Source: Aureimonas sp. SA4125 (GTDB lineage Bacteria > Pseudomonadota > Alphaproteobacteria > Rhizobiales > Rhizobiaceae). From it: DNA of 64,000 nt. The first letter of the stretch is position 1; the number at the start of each line of letters is the position of its first letter. The stretch spans positions 1,178,001-1,242,000 of the forward strand of contig NZ_AP025032.1 in NCBI RefSeq assembly GCF_019973775.1, in the 5' to 3' direction. Both the position numbers and the translations under genes were made by a program. Positions 22,909-46,205 of this stretch are shown one piece after another. The notes below the pieces were generated by a model that did not search any database, had not been told where the DNA came from, and saw nothing but the letters and a program-made list of their open reading frames with translations.

Positions 22909-23433
22909 TCAGGCCTGGAAGGCGGTGCGCAGGAGGTTGAGCTGCTCGCCGACCGGATTGACGGTCTCGTCAGAGGCCGGGTAGGCGCCGTAGATCTCGC
23001 GGTCGAGCATCGCGATGCGCCGCTCGAGCTTCAGGGCACGCTCGACAAGCGAACGGAAGATTTCAGGCAGTTCGTGGAAGAGGGGCGTGTCGCGGCCCGA
23101 GCCGACGCCTTCGAGCCGAACCTTCACCTTTTCGATCTCGACCTGCGCCCGCGTCATGTCACCCTGATTGGCGGCGCGCTGCAGGAGAAGCCAGGAGGCG
23201 ACCTGCATCAGCCGGGTCGTCAGCCTCATCGATTCGGCGGCGTAGAGCGTCGCGGCGGCACGCGACAGCGCCTTGCAGTCGCTCCGACCGTCACCGTCGA
23301 GATAAACGGCCGTCTCGTCGACGAGCGTCATGCCTTCGTTGAAAAGCGGCTGGAACGACCGCGAGAAGGCCATGTGTTCCGCCAGCCGAATGGTCCGTTG
23401 ATCGTCGACATGGTCGAAACTGTTCGTGGTCAT
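22909..23433 (-). CDS. rcdA: RcdA-like DUF1465 protein
   Basis: This 174-residue all-helical protein belongs to the alphaproteobacterial DUF1465 group. Its Caulobacter member RcdA is an adaptor that helps ClpXP degrade the master regulator CtrA. Typical features are the N-terminal FSRSFQPLFNEGMTLVDETA, a middle helix with SMRLTTRLMQVASWLLLQRA, and a C-terminal segment RIAMLDREIYG. The length fits. The DNA upstream carries a near-CtrA site and an sRNA candidate (23.5-23.7 kb). Adaptor function is by family; I assign the symbol with moderate confidence. Confidence 0.75.
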   Translation of the reverse strand: MTTNSFDHVDDQRTIRLAEHMAFSRSFQPLFNEGMTLVDETAVYLDGDGRSDCKALSRAAATLYAAESMRLTTRLMQVASWLLLQRAANQGDMTRAQVEIEKVKVRLEGVGSGRDTPLFHELPEIFRSLVERALKLERRIAMLDREIYGAYPASDETVNPVGEQLNLLRTAFQA

Positions 23434-23549: not shown

Positions 23550-23563
23550 TTAACGCAGGTTAA
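23550..23563. promoter_or_regulatory. Near-consensus CtrA site upstream of rcdA
   Basis: TTAACGCAGGTTAA has two TTAA halves spaced by 6 bp, one less than the CtrA consensus TTAA-N7-TTAA. It lies about 117 bp upstream of the rcdA start. In Caulobacter rcdA belongs to the CtrA regulon. The off-by-one spacing makes this a weak call on its own. Confidence 0.35.
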
Positions 23564-23598: not shown

Positions 23599-23626
23599 AA
23601 AAAAAGAGCCGCGAAAAGGCGGCTCT
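23599..23626 (-). terminator. Rho-independent terminator of sRNA candidate
   Basis: On the minus strand an 8-bp perfect stem (arms 23619-23626 and 23605-23612) with a 6-nt loop is followed by a run of seven T's. It is one of the cleanest intrinsic terminators in the window. The convergent qor gene does not need it and rcdA starts downstream of it, so it most likely ends an independent minus-strand transcript. Confidence 0.85.
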
Positions 23627-23700
23627 GAAGTTAAACAGGGAGGTGTCCGACAGGATGGAGAGCCATCCGTGTCTAACCAGAAAACTGGATATCCCCAGTA
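23599..23700 (-). ncRNA. Candidate trans-acting small RNA
   Basis: Reading the minus strand, three hairpins line up within about 100 nt: ACTGG-N6-CCAGT (23699-23684), GGATGG-CTCT-CCATCC (23668-23653), and a Rho-independent terminator AGAGCCGC-CTTTTC-GCGGCTCT with a U-tract (23626-23599). Between the second hairpin and the terminator lies an unpaired CACCTCCCTG, complementary to a Shine-Dalgarno core. No ORF is present. A CtrA-consensus site (23714-23729) lies just upstream. This architecture (stem-loops, anti-SD loop, terminator) resembles the Hfq-type alpha sRNAs known in rhizobia, but I cannot assign a named family. The 5' end is estimated. Confidence 0.7.
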
Positions 23701-23713
23701 AACGCCAACATCC

Positions 23714-23729
23714 TTAATCCCGCGTTAAC
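23714..23729. promoter_or_regulatory. CtrA-consensus binding site
   Basis: TTAATCCCGCGTTAAC is an exact TTAA-N7-TTAAC match to the CtrA box. It is 14-30 bp upstream of the estimated sRNA 5' end and about 115 bp upstream of qor on the other strand. A CtrA box at the -35 position is typical of CtrA-activated promoters. Confidence 0.6.
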
Positions 23730-23843
23730 GATGCTTGCCGACAGGCCGCCACCAGATCCTGCACAGCGACCGGTGCCGACGAAGGATGTCGCTGCGGATG
23801 TCGTGCCCTATCTCAGCCCGTCCGTACCGAAAAAGGATGAACG

Positions 23844-24851
23844 ATGCAGCTCCCTGACACGATGACAGCCGTGGTGCTCCGGGGCGCCGGCGGACCGGAG
23901 GTCCTGGTACCCGAAGCGCGGCCGCGGCCGCGACCGGCGCCGGGCCAGATCCTGATCGAGGTGCATGCTGCCGGCGTCAACCGGCCCGACGTCCTGCAGC
24001 GAATGGGTGCCTATCCCGCGCCAAAGGGCGCGCCGGACTGGCCGGGCCTGGAGGTCGCCGGCCGGGTCGCGGCGCTGGGTGAGGGGGGCAGCCGCTTTGC
24101 GCTGGGGGACAGGGTGATGGCCCTTCTCCCGGGTGGCGGCTATGCGGACTATGCCGCGGTCGCCGAGGAAAATGCCCTGCCCGTGCCCGAGGGCCTCAGC
24201 CTCGTCGAGGCGGCAGGCGTTCCGGAGACTTTCTTCACCGTCTGGCACAATGTCTTCCAGCGCGGTGGTCTAGTCGCCGGCGAGCGCTTTCTCGTCCACG
24301 GCGGCACGTCCGGCATCGGGACGACGGCGATCCAGCTTGCCAGGAGTTTCGGCGCCGAGGTCTACGTCACCGTCGGCAGCCCCGAGAAATGCGCAGCATC
24401 GCTGAAGCTCGGCGCGCACCATGCGATCAACTACCGCGACGAGGATTTTGTCGAGGCGATCAAGGCGGCCACCGGGGGCCAAGGCATCGACGTCACGCTC
24501 GACATGGTCGGCGGCGACTACACAGCCCGCAATCTGGCCGTCGCGGCCGAGGATGGCCGGATCGTCCAGATCGCCTTCCTCAGGGGCCAGGCGGTCGAGA
24601 TCGATCTGCAGCCGATCATGATGAAGCGCCTGACCCTCACCGGATCGACGCTGCGGGCGCGCTCGGTGGCGTTCAAGGCCTCCATCGCGCGCGCGCTGGA
24701 GGAAAAGGTCTGGCCGCTTCTCGCCGACGGCAGCATCCGTCCGCTGATCGACACGATCTATCCTCTGGAGAACGCGGCCGAAGCGCATCGGCACATGGAT
24801 GACGACCATATCGGCAAGATCATCCTGACGACGCGCTACTTCGCCGGCTAA
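23844..24851 (+). CDS. NAD(P)H-quinone oxidoreductase (zinc-independent MDR family)
   Basis: This 335-residue medium-chain dehydrogenase/reductase of the QOR/PIG3 type has an N-terminal GroES-like domain (VNRPDVLQRMGAYP, then WPGLEVAGRV) and a nucleotide-binding motif LVHGGTSGIGTTAIQLA (about residues 149-165). It lacks the structural-zinc Cys cluster of alcohol dehydrogenases. It probably reduces quinones or similar carbonyls with NADPH. It stands directly before trcR on the same strand, with a 230-bp gap that contains a separate promoter candidate. Confidence 0.9.
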   Translation: MQLPDTMTAVVLRGAGGPEVLVPEARPRPRPAPGQILIEVHAAGVNRPDVLQRMGAYPAPKGAPDWPGLEVAGRVAALGEGGSRFALGDRVMALLPGGGYADYAAVAEENALPVPEGLSLVEAAGVPETFFTVWHNVFQRGGLVAGERFLVHGGTSGIGTTAIQLARSFGAEVYVTVGSPEKCAASLKLGAHHAINYRDEDFVEAIKAATGGQGIDVTLDMVGGDYTARNLAVAAEDGRIVQIAFLRGQAVEIDLQPIMMKRLTLTGSTLRARSVAFKASIARALEEKVWPLLADGSIRPLIDTIYPLENAAEAHRHMDDDHIGKIILTTRYFAG

Positions 24852-35299: not shown

Positions 35300-36058
35300 A
35301 TGAATGCGCGGATCGCCGTTGTCGAGGACGAGGAGGCGCTCTCCGTCCTCCTGCGCTACAATCTCGAGGCGGAAGGCTACATCGTCGACACCATCGCGCG
35401 CGGCGACGAGGCCGACATCCGCCTGAAGGAGATCGTCCCCGACCTCCTGATCCTCGACTGGATGCTGCCGGGCCTTTCCGGCGTCGAGCTCTGCCGGCGG
35501 CTGCGCACGCGGCCGGAGACCGAGCGCCTGCCGATCATCATGCTGACCGCGCGCGGCGAGGAATCCGAGCGGGTGAGGGGCCTGTCGGTCGGTGCTGACG
35601 ACTATGTCGTGAAGCCCTTCTCGACACCGGAACTGATGGCACGGGTGCGCGCCATGCTGCGGCGCGTGCGGCCGGAGAAGATCTCGACCCTCCTGAATGC
35701 CGGCGACATCGATCTCGACCGCGAAACCCACCGCGTCCGCCGTCTCGGTCGCGAGGTGAAGCTCGGACCGACGGAATTCAAGCTGCTGGAATTCTTCATG
35801 CAGTCGCCCGGGCGCGTCTTCTCGCGCGAGCAATTGCTCGACGGCGTCTGGGGCCGCGACATCTATGTCGACGAGCGCACCGTCGACGTCCATGTCGGGC
35901 GCCTGCGCAAGGCGATCAACCGCGGCCGCCAGCGCGACCCGATCCGCACCGTCCGTGGCGCCGGCTACGCCCTCGACGAGAACTTTTCCGCCAGCGCGAA
36001 GGCGGTACGGCCGGGCATGCCAGCGGTGGCAGGGGCGCGCGACAGCGCGGCGGAGTAG
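35300..36058 (+). CDS. phoB: Phosphate regulon response regulator
   Basis: This 252-residue OmpR-family response regulator has a receiver domain with acidic pocket VVEDEEALS, phospho-accepting Asp in LLILDWMLPG and Lys in DYVVKPFS. The C-terminal winged-helix domain has GPTEFKLLEFFMQSPGRVFS and DERTVDVHVGRLRKAI. Phosphorylated PhoB should bind the PHO box at 29710-29742. The C-terminus extends about 20 residues past the usual end with a low-complexity tail. The position at the end of the pst operon makes it autoregulated. Confidence 0.95.
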   Translation: MNARIAVVEDEEALSVLLRYNLEAEGYIVDTIARGDEADIRLKEIVPDLLILDWMLPGLSGVELCRRLRTRPETERLPIIMLTARGEESERVRGLSVGADDYVVKPFSTPELMARVRAMLRRVRPEKISTLLNAGDIDLDRETHRVRRLGREVKLGPTEFKLLEFFMQSPGRVFSREQLLDGVWGRDIYVDERTVDVHVGRLRKAINRGRQRDPIRTVRGAGYALDENFSASAKAVRPGMPAVAGARDSAAE

Positions 36059-36743: not shown

Positions 36744-37304
36744 TTAGCGAACGCGTCGACGCTCGGAGACCGGCTGAAACGCGATCTTGGCGTGGTAGAG
36801 GCAGTAGGGCGAGGCGTCGTTGGAGTGGTTGCCGCAGAAGCGGAACTCCGGCGACAGCGGATCGCCCAGCGGCCACTTGCAGGTCCGCTCGTTCAACTGG
36901 ACGAGGGTCAGGTTGCGCGAGATCGGCACGACCTCGGCCGAGACGAGCGGCCGGGGCTGCTCGGCCACGGCGTCGATCTCTTCTTCCATCTTCAGGGCCG
37001 TGGCGCCGTGCGACCCGCCGCCGCTCGAGCGCATGATGCGGGGAGCGGACTGCATCGAGACGAGGCGAGCCGGCATCTCCATTTCGACGACCGATTCCAC
37101 CACCGCGGCGGCCGCGACCTTCGGCTGCGCCTGCTCCTGCGCGGATACATGCGCTTTCGCCCGTCCCTCGAGCTTCAGGCGGTGAACCTTGCCGATGACC
37201 GCGTTGCGGGTGACGCCGCCGAGTTGTCCGGCGATCTGGCTCGCGCTCAGCCCCTCGGTCCAGAGTTTGATCAAGAGATCCACTCTTTCTTCCGTCCAGC
37301 CCAT
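36744..37304 (-). CDS. gcrA: Cell cycle regulator GcrA
   Basis: This 186-residue alphaproteobacterial sigma-70 cofactor acts preferentially at promoters with methylated GANTC sites. The N-terminal HTH (MGWTEERVDLLIKLWTEGLS, then ASQIAGQLGG-VTRNAVIGK) is diagnostic. A variable middle follows, then a conserved C-terminus with NERTCKWPLGDP and FCGNHSNDASPYCLYHAKIA. The Cys residues here are typical. The ATG at 37304 has AGGAG upstream. The 460-bp upstream region contains a tight cluster of GANTC sites. Confidence 0.96.
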   Translation of the reverse strand: MGWTEERVDLLIKLWTEGLSASQIAGQLGGVTRNAVIGKVHRLKLEGRAKAHVSAQEQAQPKVAAAAVVESVVEMEMPARLVSMQSAPRIMRSSGGGSHGATALKMEEEIDAVAEQPRPLVSAEVVPISRNLTLVQLNERTCKWPLGDPLSPEFRFCGNHSNDASPYCLYHAKIAFQPVSERRRVR

Positions 37305-43317: not shown

Positions 43318-43342
43318 CTGGAGCAATGGCGTCCTGGGTCGG

Positions 43343-43396
43343 CCCTTTAGCGAGTTGTTTAACGTGGCTGCAAGCCGGCCGGCCAAATCACCACGA
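43343..43396 (-). ncRNA. SAM-II riboswitch (metZ leader)
   Basis: Reading the minus strand, the conserved SAM-II core is present almost intact: TCGTGGTGATTTGG at the 5' side (43396-43383), CTTGCAGCCACGTTAAA in the middle and CGCTAAAGGG at the 3' end. These segments build the H-type pseudoknot of the alphaproteobacterial metA-motif riboswitch, which binds S-adenosylmethionine. It precedes metZ, a standard location. The P1 stem loop CCGGCCGGC replaces the variable loop. Confidence 0.93.
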
Positions 43397-43496
43397 ATTC
43401 CGACCCGACGATAATCCGCCGGTGGCCAGAGGTCAATTCTCTCTGCTAAAGCCTTTCGCGCGCGAGCCGCGCAAGTACGAGAGAAGGACGGGCCAA

Positions 43497-46130: not shown

Positions 46131-46205
46131 GCGGGCGTAGTTCAGCGGTAGAACGCCAGCTTCCCAAGCTGGATGTCGTGGGTTCGATCCCCATCGCCCG
46201 CTCCA
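46131..46205 (+). tRNA. tRNA-Gly (anticodon CCC)
   Basis: The cloverleaf is complete: acceptor arms GCGGGCG and CGCCCGC, D-arm GTTC-AGCGGTA-GAAC, anticodon stem CCAGC-TTCCCAA-GCTGG with CCC at positions 34-36, T-arm GTGGG-TTCGATC-CCCAT, discriminator T and encoded CCA. It reads GGG codons. It is at the boundary between core-like and accessory DNA, a frequent attachment site; a second copy of its 3' end was not found in the window. Confidence 0.97.

Follow-up and report, generated by a model that had tools for sequence, protein, structure and literature searches.

We identified a small RNA (sRNA) gene on the minus strand of this DNA, between rcdA and a qor-like gene (Table 1). As judged from its sequence, it is a real sRNA of an already described Rfam family, RF02356 (BjrC1505). 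We think, with a probability of roughly three in four, that it specifies a stand-alone, trans-acting RNA of ~93-100 nt that is most likely activated by phosphorylated CtrA (CtrA~P) and would block translation at Shine-Dalgarno regions. It is also probable, if somewhat less firmly so, that BjrC1505 is a direct and ancient member of the CtrA regulon. It would then be CtrA-activated and conserved in the majority of Hyphomicrobiales and within parts of further orders of the Alphaproteobacteria; its diverged form in Rhizobium and Sinorhizobium would escape Rfam, and its promoter would be modelled there as RNA. Throughout, "the window" is the whole 64-kb stretch of DNA that was analysed.

Table 1. 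Features of the sRNA locus and its neighbours.
Feature	Position	Strand	Basis and remarks
sRNA gene, RF02356 (BjrC1505) family	23599..23691	-	predicted start ~23691, +/-~4 nt; length ~93 nt
Hairpin 1 (relatives: ATCCAG type)	23674..23691	-	fold; covariation
Hairpin 2 (relatives: GAGTGG...CCACTC type)	23649..23673	-	fold; covariation
Conserved core GACACCTCCCTGTT, mostly unpaired and complementary to Shine-Dalgarno sequences	23634..23647	-	alignment A1; fold
Intrinsic terminator, 8-pair stem and T run	23599..23626	-	fold; pairing in relatives
-10-like element TTTACT (family consensus ~TATTACT)	23697..23702	-	box-anchored profile of 138 loci; position from sequence
CtrA box TTAATCCCGCGTTAAC	23714..23729	+	exact TTAA-N7-TTAAC; sole exact TTAA-N7-TTAA in the window
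Second CtrA-like site, TTAA-N6-TTAA (6-base spacing)	23550..23563	-	between sRNA terminator and rcdA; sequence
rcdA, next gene downstream, same strand	22909..23433	-	PF07323 (DUF1465) 177.8 bits; PDB 3CTW 'RcdA', E 1.7e-32
qor-like zinc-binding dehydrogenase, divergent neighbour	23844..24851	+	PF00107/PF08240

Identity and extent of the sRNA gene

The RF02356 covariance model matches 23599-23735(-) over model positions 1-140 (58.1 bits, gathering cut-off 50), and this is the one match in the genome. The preliminary description of this DNA had held that no gene annotation would record the sRNA, a view contradicted by this match, which came from the Rfam search that it had itself proposed. It had also placed a minus-strand transcript at 23599-23729. 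The RNA, its hairpins and its terminator stand, but that span takes in the CtrA box, which lies upstream of the likely start.

The start was derived from the CtrA box and the -10 profile, and is predicted rather than mapped. A start nearer 23691 than 23729 is more likely, which would leave the box outside the RNA. At 138 loci, the length of the RNA counted from 36 bases past the start of the box is 91-106 nt (median 99). The new result for the family is that the first ~43 of the 140 model positions are probably promoter DNA (CtrA box and -10 element) and not RNA, because the box falls at -35, a -10 element follows it, and the predicted start is at hairpin 1.

Madhugiri 2012 is said to be the founding paper of BjrC1505. 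The name also appears in a table of a Herbaspirillum study, in the available part of that report. We found no link of BjrC1505/RF02356 to CtrA in the mostly open-access literature searched.

RNA structure and conserved core

The 96-nt RNA 23694-23599 has a predicted folding energy of -34.1 kcal/mol (z -4.67), and 0 of 200 shuffled sequences did as well; here and below, shuffled sequences served solely as controls. Between hairpin 2 and the terminator, GACACCUCCCUGUU is largely open in this fold. The terminator with seven T proposed at the outset is present: its hairpin extends from 23626 to 23605 and its T run reaches 23599, with the first of the seven T inside the stem.

Pairing was assessed in an alignment (A1) of 78 of 104 non-redundant sequences (26 left out). 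Across the three hairpins, 93.2% of cells are paired and double changes occur at 15 of 19 pairs (104 cells in total), a level matched by 0 of 500 shuffles. When the partner was shifted by 1-3 bases as a control, pairing fell to 32-49%. Double changes affect four of the six pairs of hairpin 1 (91.3% of cells paired) and 6/6 counted pairs of hairpin 2 (helices 2 and 3), and the terminator is paired in 99.3% of cells. Covariation in the three stems, named beforehand as a test of the RNA, is seen in all three hairpins.

Within the core, CTGT is invariant and CTCC nearly invariant among the 78 sequences. The segment CACCTCCCTG (23645-23636) is unpaired in the centroid structure of the 96-nt RNA, and its UCC lies in a 3-pair helix in the minimum-energy fold. 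The minimum-energy fold of a 131-nt span pairs the core with upstream sequence. The description of CACCTCCCTG as single-stranded thus holds for the shorter transcript of ~96 nt and fails over the 131 nt for which it was made. Because the core is able to base-pair with Shine-Dalgarno sequences, it should block ribosome binding at target genes.

The full-length match to BjrC1505 means that hairpins, core and terminator are held in common with that family. The 3' part is also similar to those of suhB/MmgR (RF00519) and SorY (RF02651), with CUCCCU, an ACUU spacer and a GC-rich terminator, but both models score below their cut-offs here (25.1 bits against 41 and 22.4 bits against 111, respectively). 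CcnA of Caulobacter crescentus (182 nt) is encoded within the replication origin, a different locus, and in the available text its authors report no clear detection of a homologue in S. meliloti. EcpR1 of Sinorhizobium meliloti is, like this sRNA, a conserved Hyphomicrobiales trans-sRNA tied to the cell cycle. According to the parts of its description available, however, it belongs to a different locus (divK-pleD/rpmG), has a sigma70 promoter and two hairpins, and is induced by stress and ppGpp.

Distribution and gene order

Among sampled genomes, RF02356 was identified in 245/297 from the order (212 above cut-off) and in 40/385 from the class (17 above cut-off); both scans used stricter filters, so weak matches were lost. 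There was no match in 14 control genomes, Caulobacter vibrioides among them. Searching 179 loci with a pattern of core plus terminator recovered the sRNA in 149 (141 once duplicates were removed); the pattern missed L106 and L172, where it is recognized by eye or by Rfam, and L020 (48.3 bits).

Loci were also chosen by rcdA. For the family we combined the 30 top-scoring loci with 20 chosen by hand, from 119 genomes with a match, and the core is present in 47 of these 50. The exceptions (L124, L129 and L135), together with L175-L179 (four of these five from genomes <2 Mb), are among the rcdA loci in which no sRNA was found. In the class search, the pattern located the core within 900 bases upstream in 10 of 30 rcdA loci, this window included, and one more (L106) was recognized by eye. 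Inspection of the DNA by eye suggests that a short open frame replaces the sRNA just before rcdA in L101, L108 and L110.

In the Rhizobium/Sinorhizobium/Shinella clade the core has diverged to TTTTTCTCCCTGTTTTACCTT. Of nine loci of this clade, one had no listed Rfam match and the others scored 27.8-46.6 bits, so that none reached the cut-off; the S. meliloti locus scored 27.8 bits against RF02356. Among the 80 top-ranking of 520 relatives in one RcdA clade, the core occurs in 80/80 loci, a box matching at least 7/8 bases in 72/80, and a second exact N7 box before rcdA in 80/80. Divergence is also seen close to this locus: in L120 (same genus, G761) the core has changed to CACTTCTCCCTGTTGCAACT despite an rcdA that is 70% identical. 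Thus, the flanks of CTCCCTGTT vary within the genus.

The gene order qor - sRNA - rcdA is common. The neighbour first described as RcdA-like is indeed RcdA, by both Pfam (DUF1465) and PDB 3CTW. Among 92 unique loci selected by RF02356, rcdA is downstream on the same strand in 76 and divergent qor is upstream in 62. No rcdA was seen within the ~1.5-kb flank at 16 loci (an upper bound), and all 16 have a box of at least 7/8. At one locus (L026) an adjacent, diverged rcdA was found by Pfam and missed by tblastn, and another locus (L019) stops at a contig end. By Pfam, rcdA is ~42 kb from the sRNA in G041 and G168 (the G168 match includes two in-frame stops), and on a different contig in G080 and G195. 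The sRNA is not always directly upstream of rcdA, as a leader or attenuator should be.

CtrA box and probable promoter

The exact TTAA-N7-TTAAC box noted in the preliminary description is present. TTAA-N7-TTAA occurs once in the window, where 0.01 are expected. In the sRNA sense the box is GTTAA-N7-TTAAG, roughly at -37 to -23 relative to the predicted start. Relative to that start, the locus has the sequence feature of CtrA-activated promoters, TTAA-N7-TTAA(C) at -35. As reported in the available text of one study, most CtrA-activated promoters of Caulobacter carry a single site at -35 (PMC11264516). The genome encodes CtrA (97% to the CtrA query).

We searched for the box 97 to 55 bases before the core in the 140 unique loci with 300 bases upstream, this locus included. 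At least 7/8 bases of TTAA-N7-TTAA were found in 132 of them, compared with 8 of 560 control windows upstream and a shuffle expectation of 13.6 for the box windows. The box is weaker than 7/8 in the other 8, which counts against a CtrA promoter. Selection by rcdA gives a fairer test, because the RF02356 model contains the box and picks made with it are partly circular; 43 of the 47 core-holding loci picked by rcdA have the box. Outside the order it reaches at least 7/8 in 25 of 27 loci, most of them picked by Rfam. The distance from box to core is tight (median 85, quartiles 81-88; mostly 78-92 in a wider window), and that from core to rcdA is loose (153-620, quartiles 237-282, 125 loci).

A profile anchored on the box in the 138 loci where it matches at least 6/8 bases (104 of them at <=90% identity) has the form gTTAAC-N6-TTAAGCTTT, followed by about six loosely conserved bases and a TATTACT-like -10. 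GCTTT right after the second TTAA (positions 15-19 from the box start) is also conserved, at 56-78% per base, and goes beyond the known CtrA motif. The second CtrA-like site, with 6-base spacing, is possibly rcdA's own promoter element.

Published observations touch on this region in relatives. The sections available from CtrA ChIP-seq in S. meliloti report binding at the rcdA promoter region and no effect of CtrA depletion on rcdA (PMC4433202). We find that this promoter region contains the diverged sRNA with an exact box. We considered that this box alone might explain the ChIP peak. The other exact box, ahead of rcdA, weakens that explanation and prevents assignment of the peak to the sRNA. 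A start-site study of S. meliloti, in its accessible part, places CtrA motifs ahead of rcdA and SMc00651 (PMC3616915). For agrobacteria, the text available describes multiple rcdA starts and a possible upstream CtrA site, such sites lying farther upstream than in Caulobacter (PMC10469942). The S. meliloti and agrobacterial reports are compatible with a CtrA-driven RNA upstream of rcdA. Against our interpretation, a study that mapped starts and terminators in Methylosinus sporium gives EcpR1 and ar45 as Rfam matches in its main text, but not BjrC1505.

Search for targets

The preliminary description proposed a CtrA-activated sRNA that closes a cell-cycle feedback by pairing with ctrA, gcrA, dnaA or rcdA mRNA. 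The covarying sRNA, the box at -35 kept in relatives and the frequent linkage to rcdA are supported, but the pairing with gcrA and rcdA is not, and we regard such a feedback as quite unlikely. In its favour, the gcrA start region pairs with the sRNA at -23.1 kcal/mol in this genome, and 1 of 42 mechanically defined open reading frames of the window (not all of them real genes) gives a lower value. Attractive here, gcrA was nevertheless rejected as a target since the pairing is not conserved in 30 relatives, where it is no better than for shuffled leaders (median z 0.23; 0/30 below -1.64). Conserved gcrA-leader pairing of the CcnA type is absent from this set. There was no clear signal for rcdA (median z -0.19; 11/125 below -1.64, with ~6 expected), which shows at most a trace, or for qor (median z 0.51; 5/72 below -1.64), and neither was kept as a target. 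In this genome, ctrA pairs at -16.3 kcal/mol near its start codon against a background mean of -15.6, and its 250-nt leader reaches -22.5 further upstream; the open frame of dnaA extends as far as the contig end. The comparison with gcrA and rcdA leaders that had been suggested thus yielded no conserved pairing. A feedback is unproven, and for gcrA the results speak against it.

Exact-seed targets were also sought. The pattern AACAGGGAGG-N2-12-ATG occurs at 4 places in this genome, one of which is the sRNA's own antisense, and the seed at 59 places in 28 relatives (at least one an sRNA antisense, two overlapping others). These 63 places in 29 genomes compare with 60 for the permuted control ACAAGGGAGG. 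Solute-binding proteins made up 8 of the 20 scanned (of 33 downstream proteins), and 7 of the 20 scanned for the permuted control (of 22 proteins with at least 90 residues). Exact-seed targets and the solute-binding enrichment were dropped as a general Shine-Dalgarno effect, given that the permuted seed did equally well.

Other features were noted in the window. gcrA is located at 36747-37304 (-), ~13 kb from the sRNA, and leaders of gcrA in relatives contain GGATTC in 21/30 and GANTC (a CcrM-type site) in 24/30, within 70 bases of the start. A CtrA-like response regulator (35309-35914 (+), 32% to the CtrA query) is ~0.8 kb from gcrA. We also identified a SAM-alpha riboswitch (43327-43404 (-), 77.7 bits) and a tRNA gene (46131-46202 (+), 70.3 bits).

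Proposed mechanism and alternatives

The computed evidence comprises RNA structure, family membership, a conserved box and -10 element, a frequent gene order and occurrence without nearby rcdA. Conservation strongly supports the predicted control of the sRNA by CtrA. We infer that phosphorylated CtrA would bind the -35 box beside the TATTACT-like -10 and activate, not repress, the sRNA promoter, which would produce sRNA in a pulse while CtrA is active. The sRNA is presumably made in this organism. The terminator would halt the transcript ahead of rcdA, and the largely unpaired GACRCCUCCCUGUU would pair with Shine-Dalgarno regions of target mRNAs, so that translation would probably be blocked by masking of these sequences.

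CtrA is able to repress as well as activate. There is a small but real chance that the sRNA exists and that CtrA represses it, or that the box serves another gene (qor or rcdA), as the box is near-palindromic and qor diverges from the same region in 62/92 loci. The tight distance of the box to the core and -10, its -35 place, which is typical of activation, and its retention in the 6 loci (of 92) where no qor and no rcdA were seen argue for activation of the sRNA instead. A chance arrangement of hairpins and box, with no RNA made, is scarcely credible: Rfam match, covariation, box conservation and terminator all oppose it.

The region could also be the 5' leader of rcdA, with the CtrA box driving rcdA and the terminator acting as a conditional attenuator. 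The 76 of 92 loci with rcdA downstream on the same strand would fit, as would the activation of C. crescentus rcdA by CtrA, reported in the available text of the ChIP-seq study (PMC4433202). We consider this unlikely, however, given a terminator paired in 99.3% of cells in 78 relatives, the Rhizobium/Sinorhizobium clade's own exact CtrA box between sRNA and rcdA (80/80 loci), and the retention of the box in all 16 of the 92 loci where no rcdA was seen in ~1.5 kb. The distant rcdA of G041 and G168, its place on another contig in G080 and G195, and the unchanged expression of S. meliloti rcdA on CtrA depletion, as that study's available text has it (PMC4433202), also speak against such a leader.

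Significance

In alphaproteobacteria, CtrA sets the timing of DNA copying, division and motility. Known cell-cycle sRNAs are few in the accounts available, with CcnA in the Caulobacter origin and EcpR1 driven by stress. The results suggest that ~30% of the RF02356 Rfam model is promoter. An sRNA with a CtrA box in most sampled genomes of the order makes both its switching by CtrA and the targets that it silences concretely testable. It also offers a possible reading of the S. meliloti result, in which CtrA is at the rcdA promoter region yet rcdA expression is unchanged. If our interpretation is true, the sRNA would give the CtrA network a translation-level arm, next to the gene that encodes the adaptor for degradation of CtrA itself.
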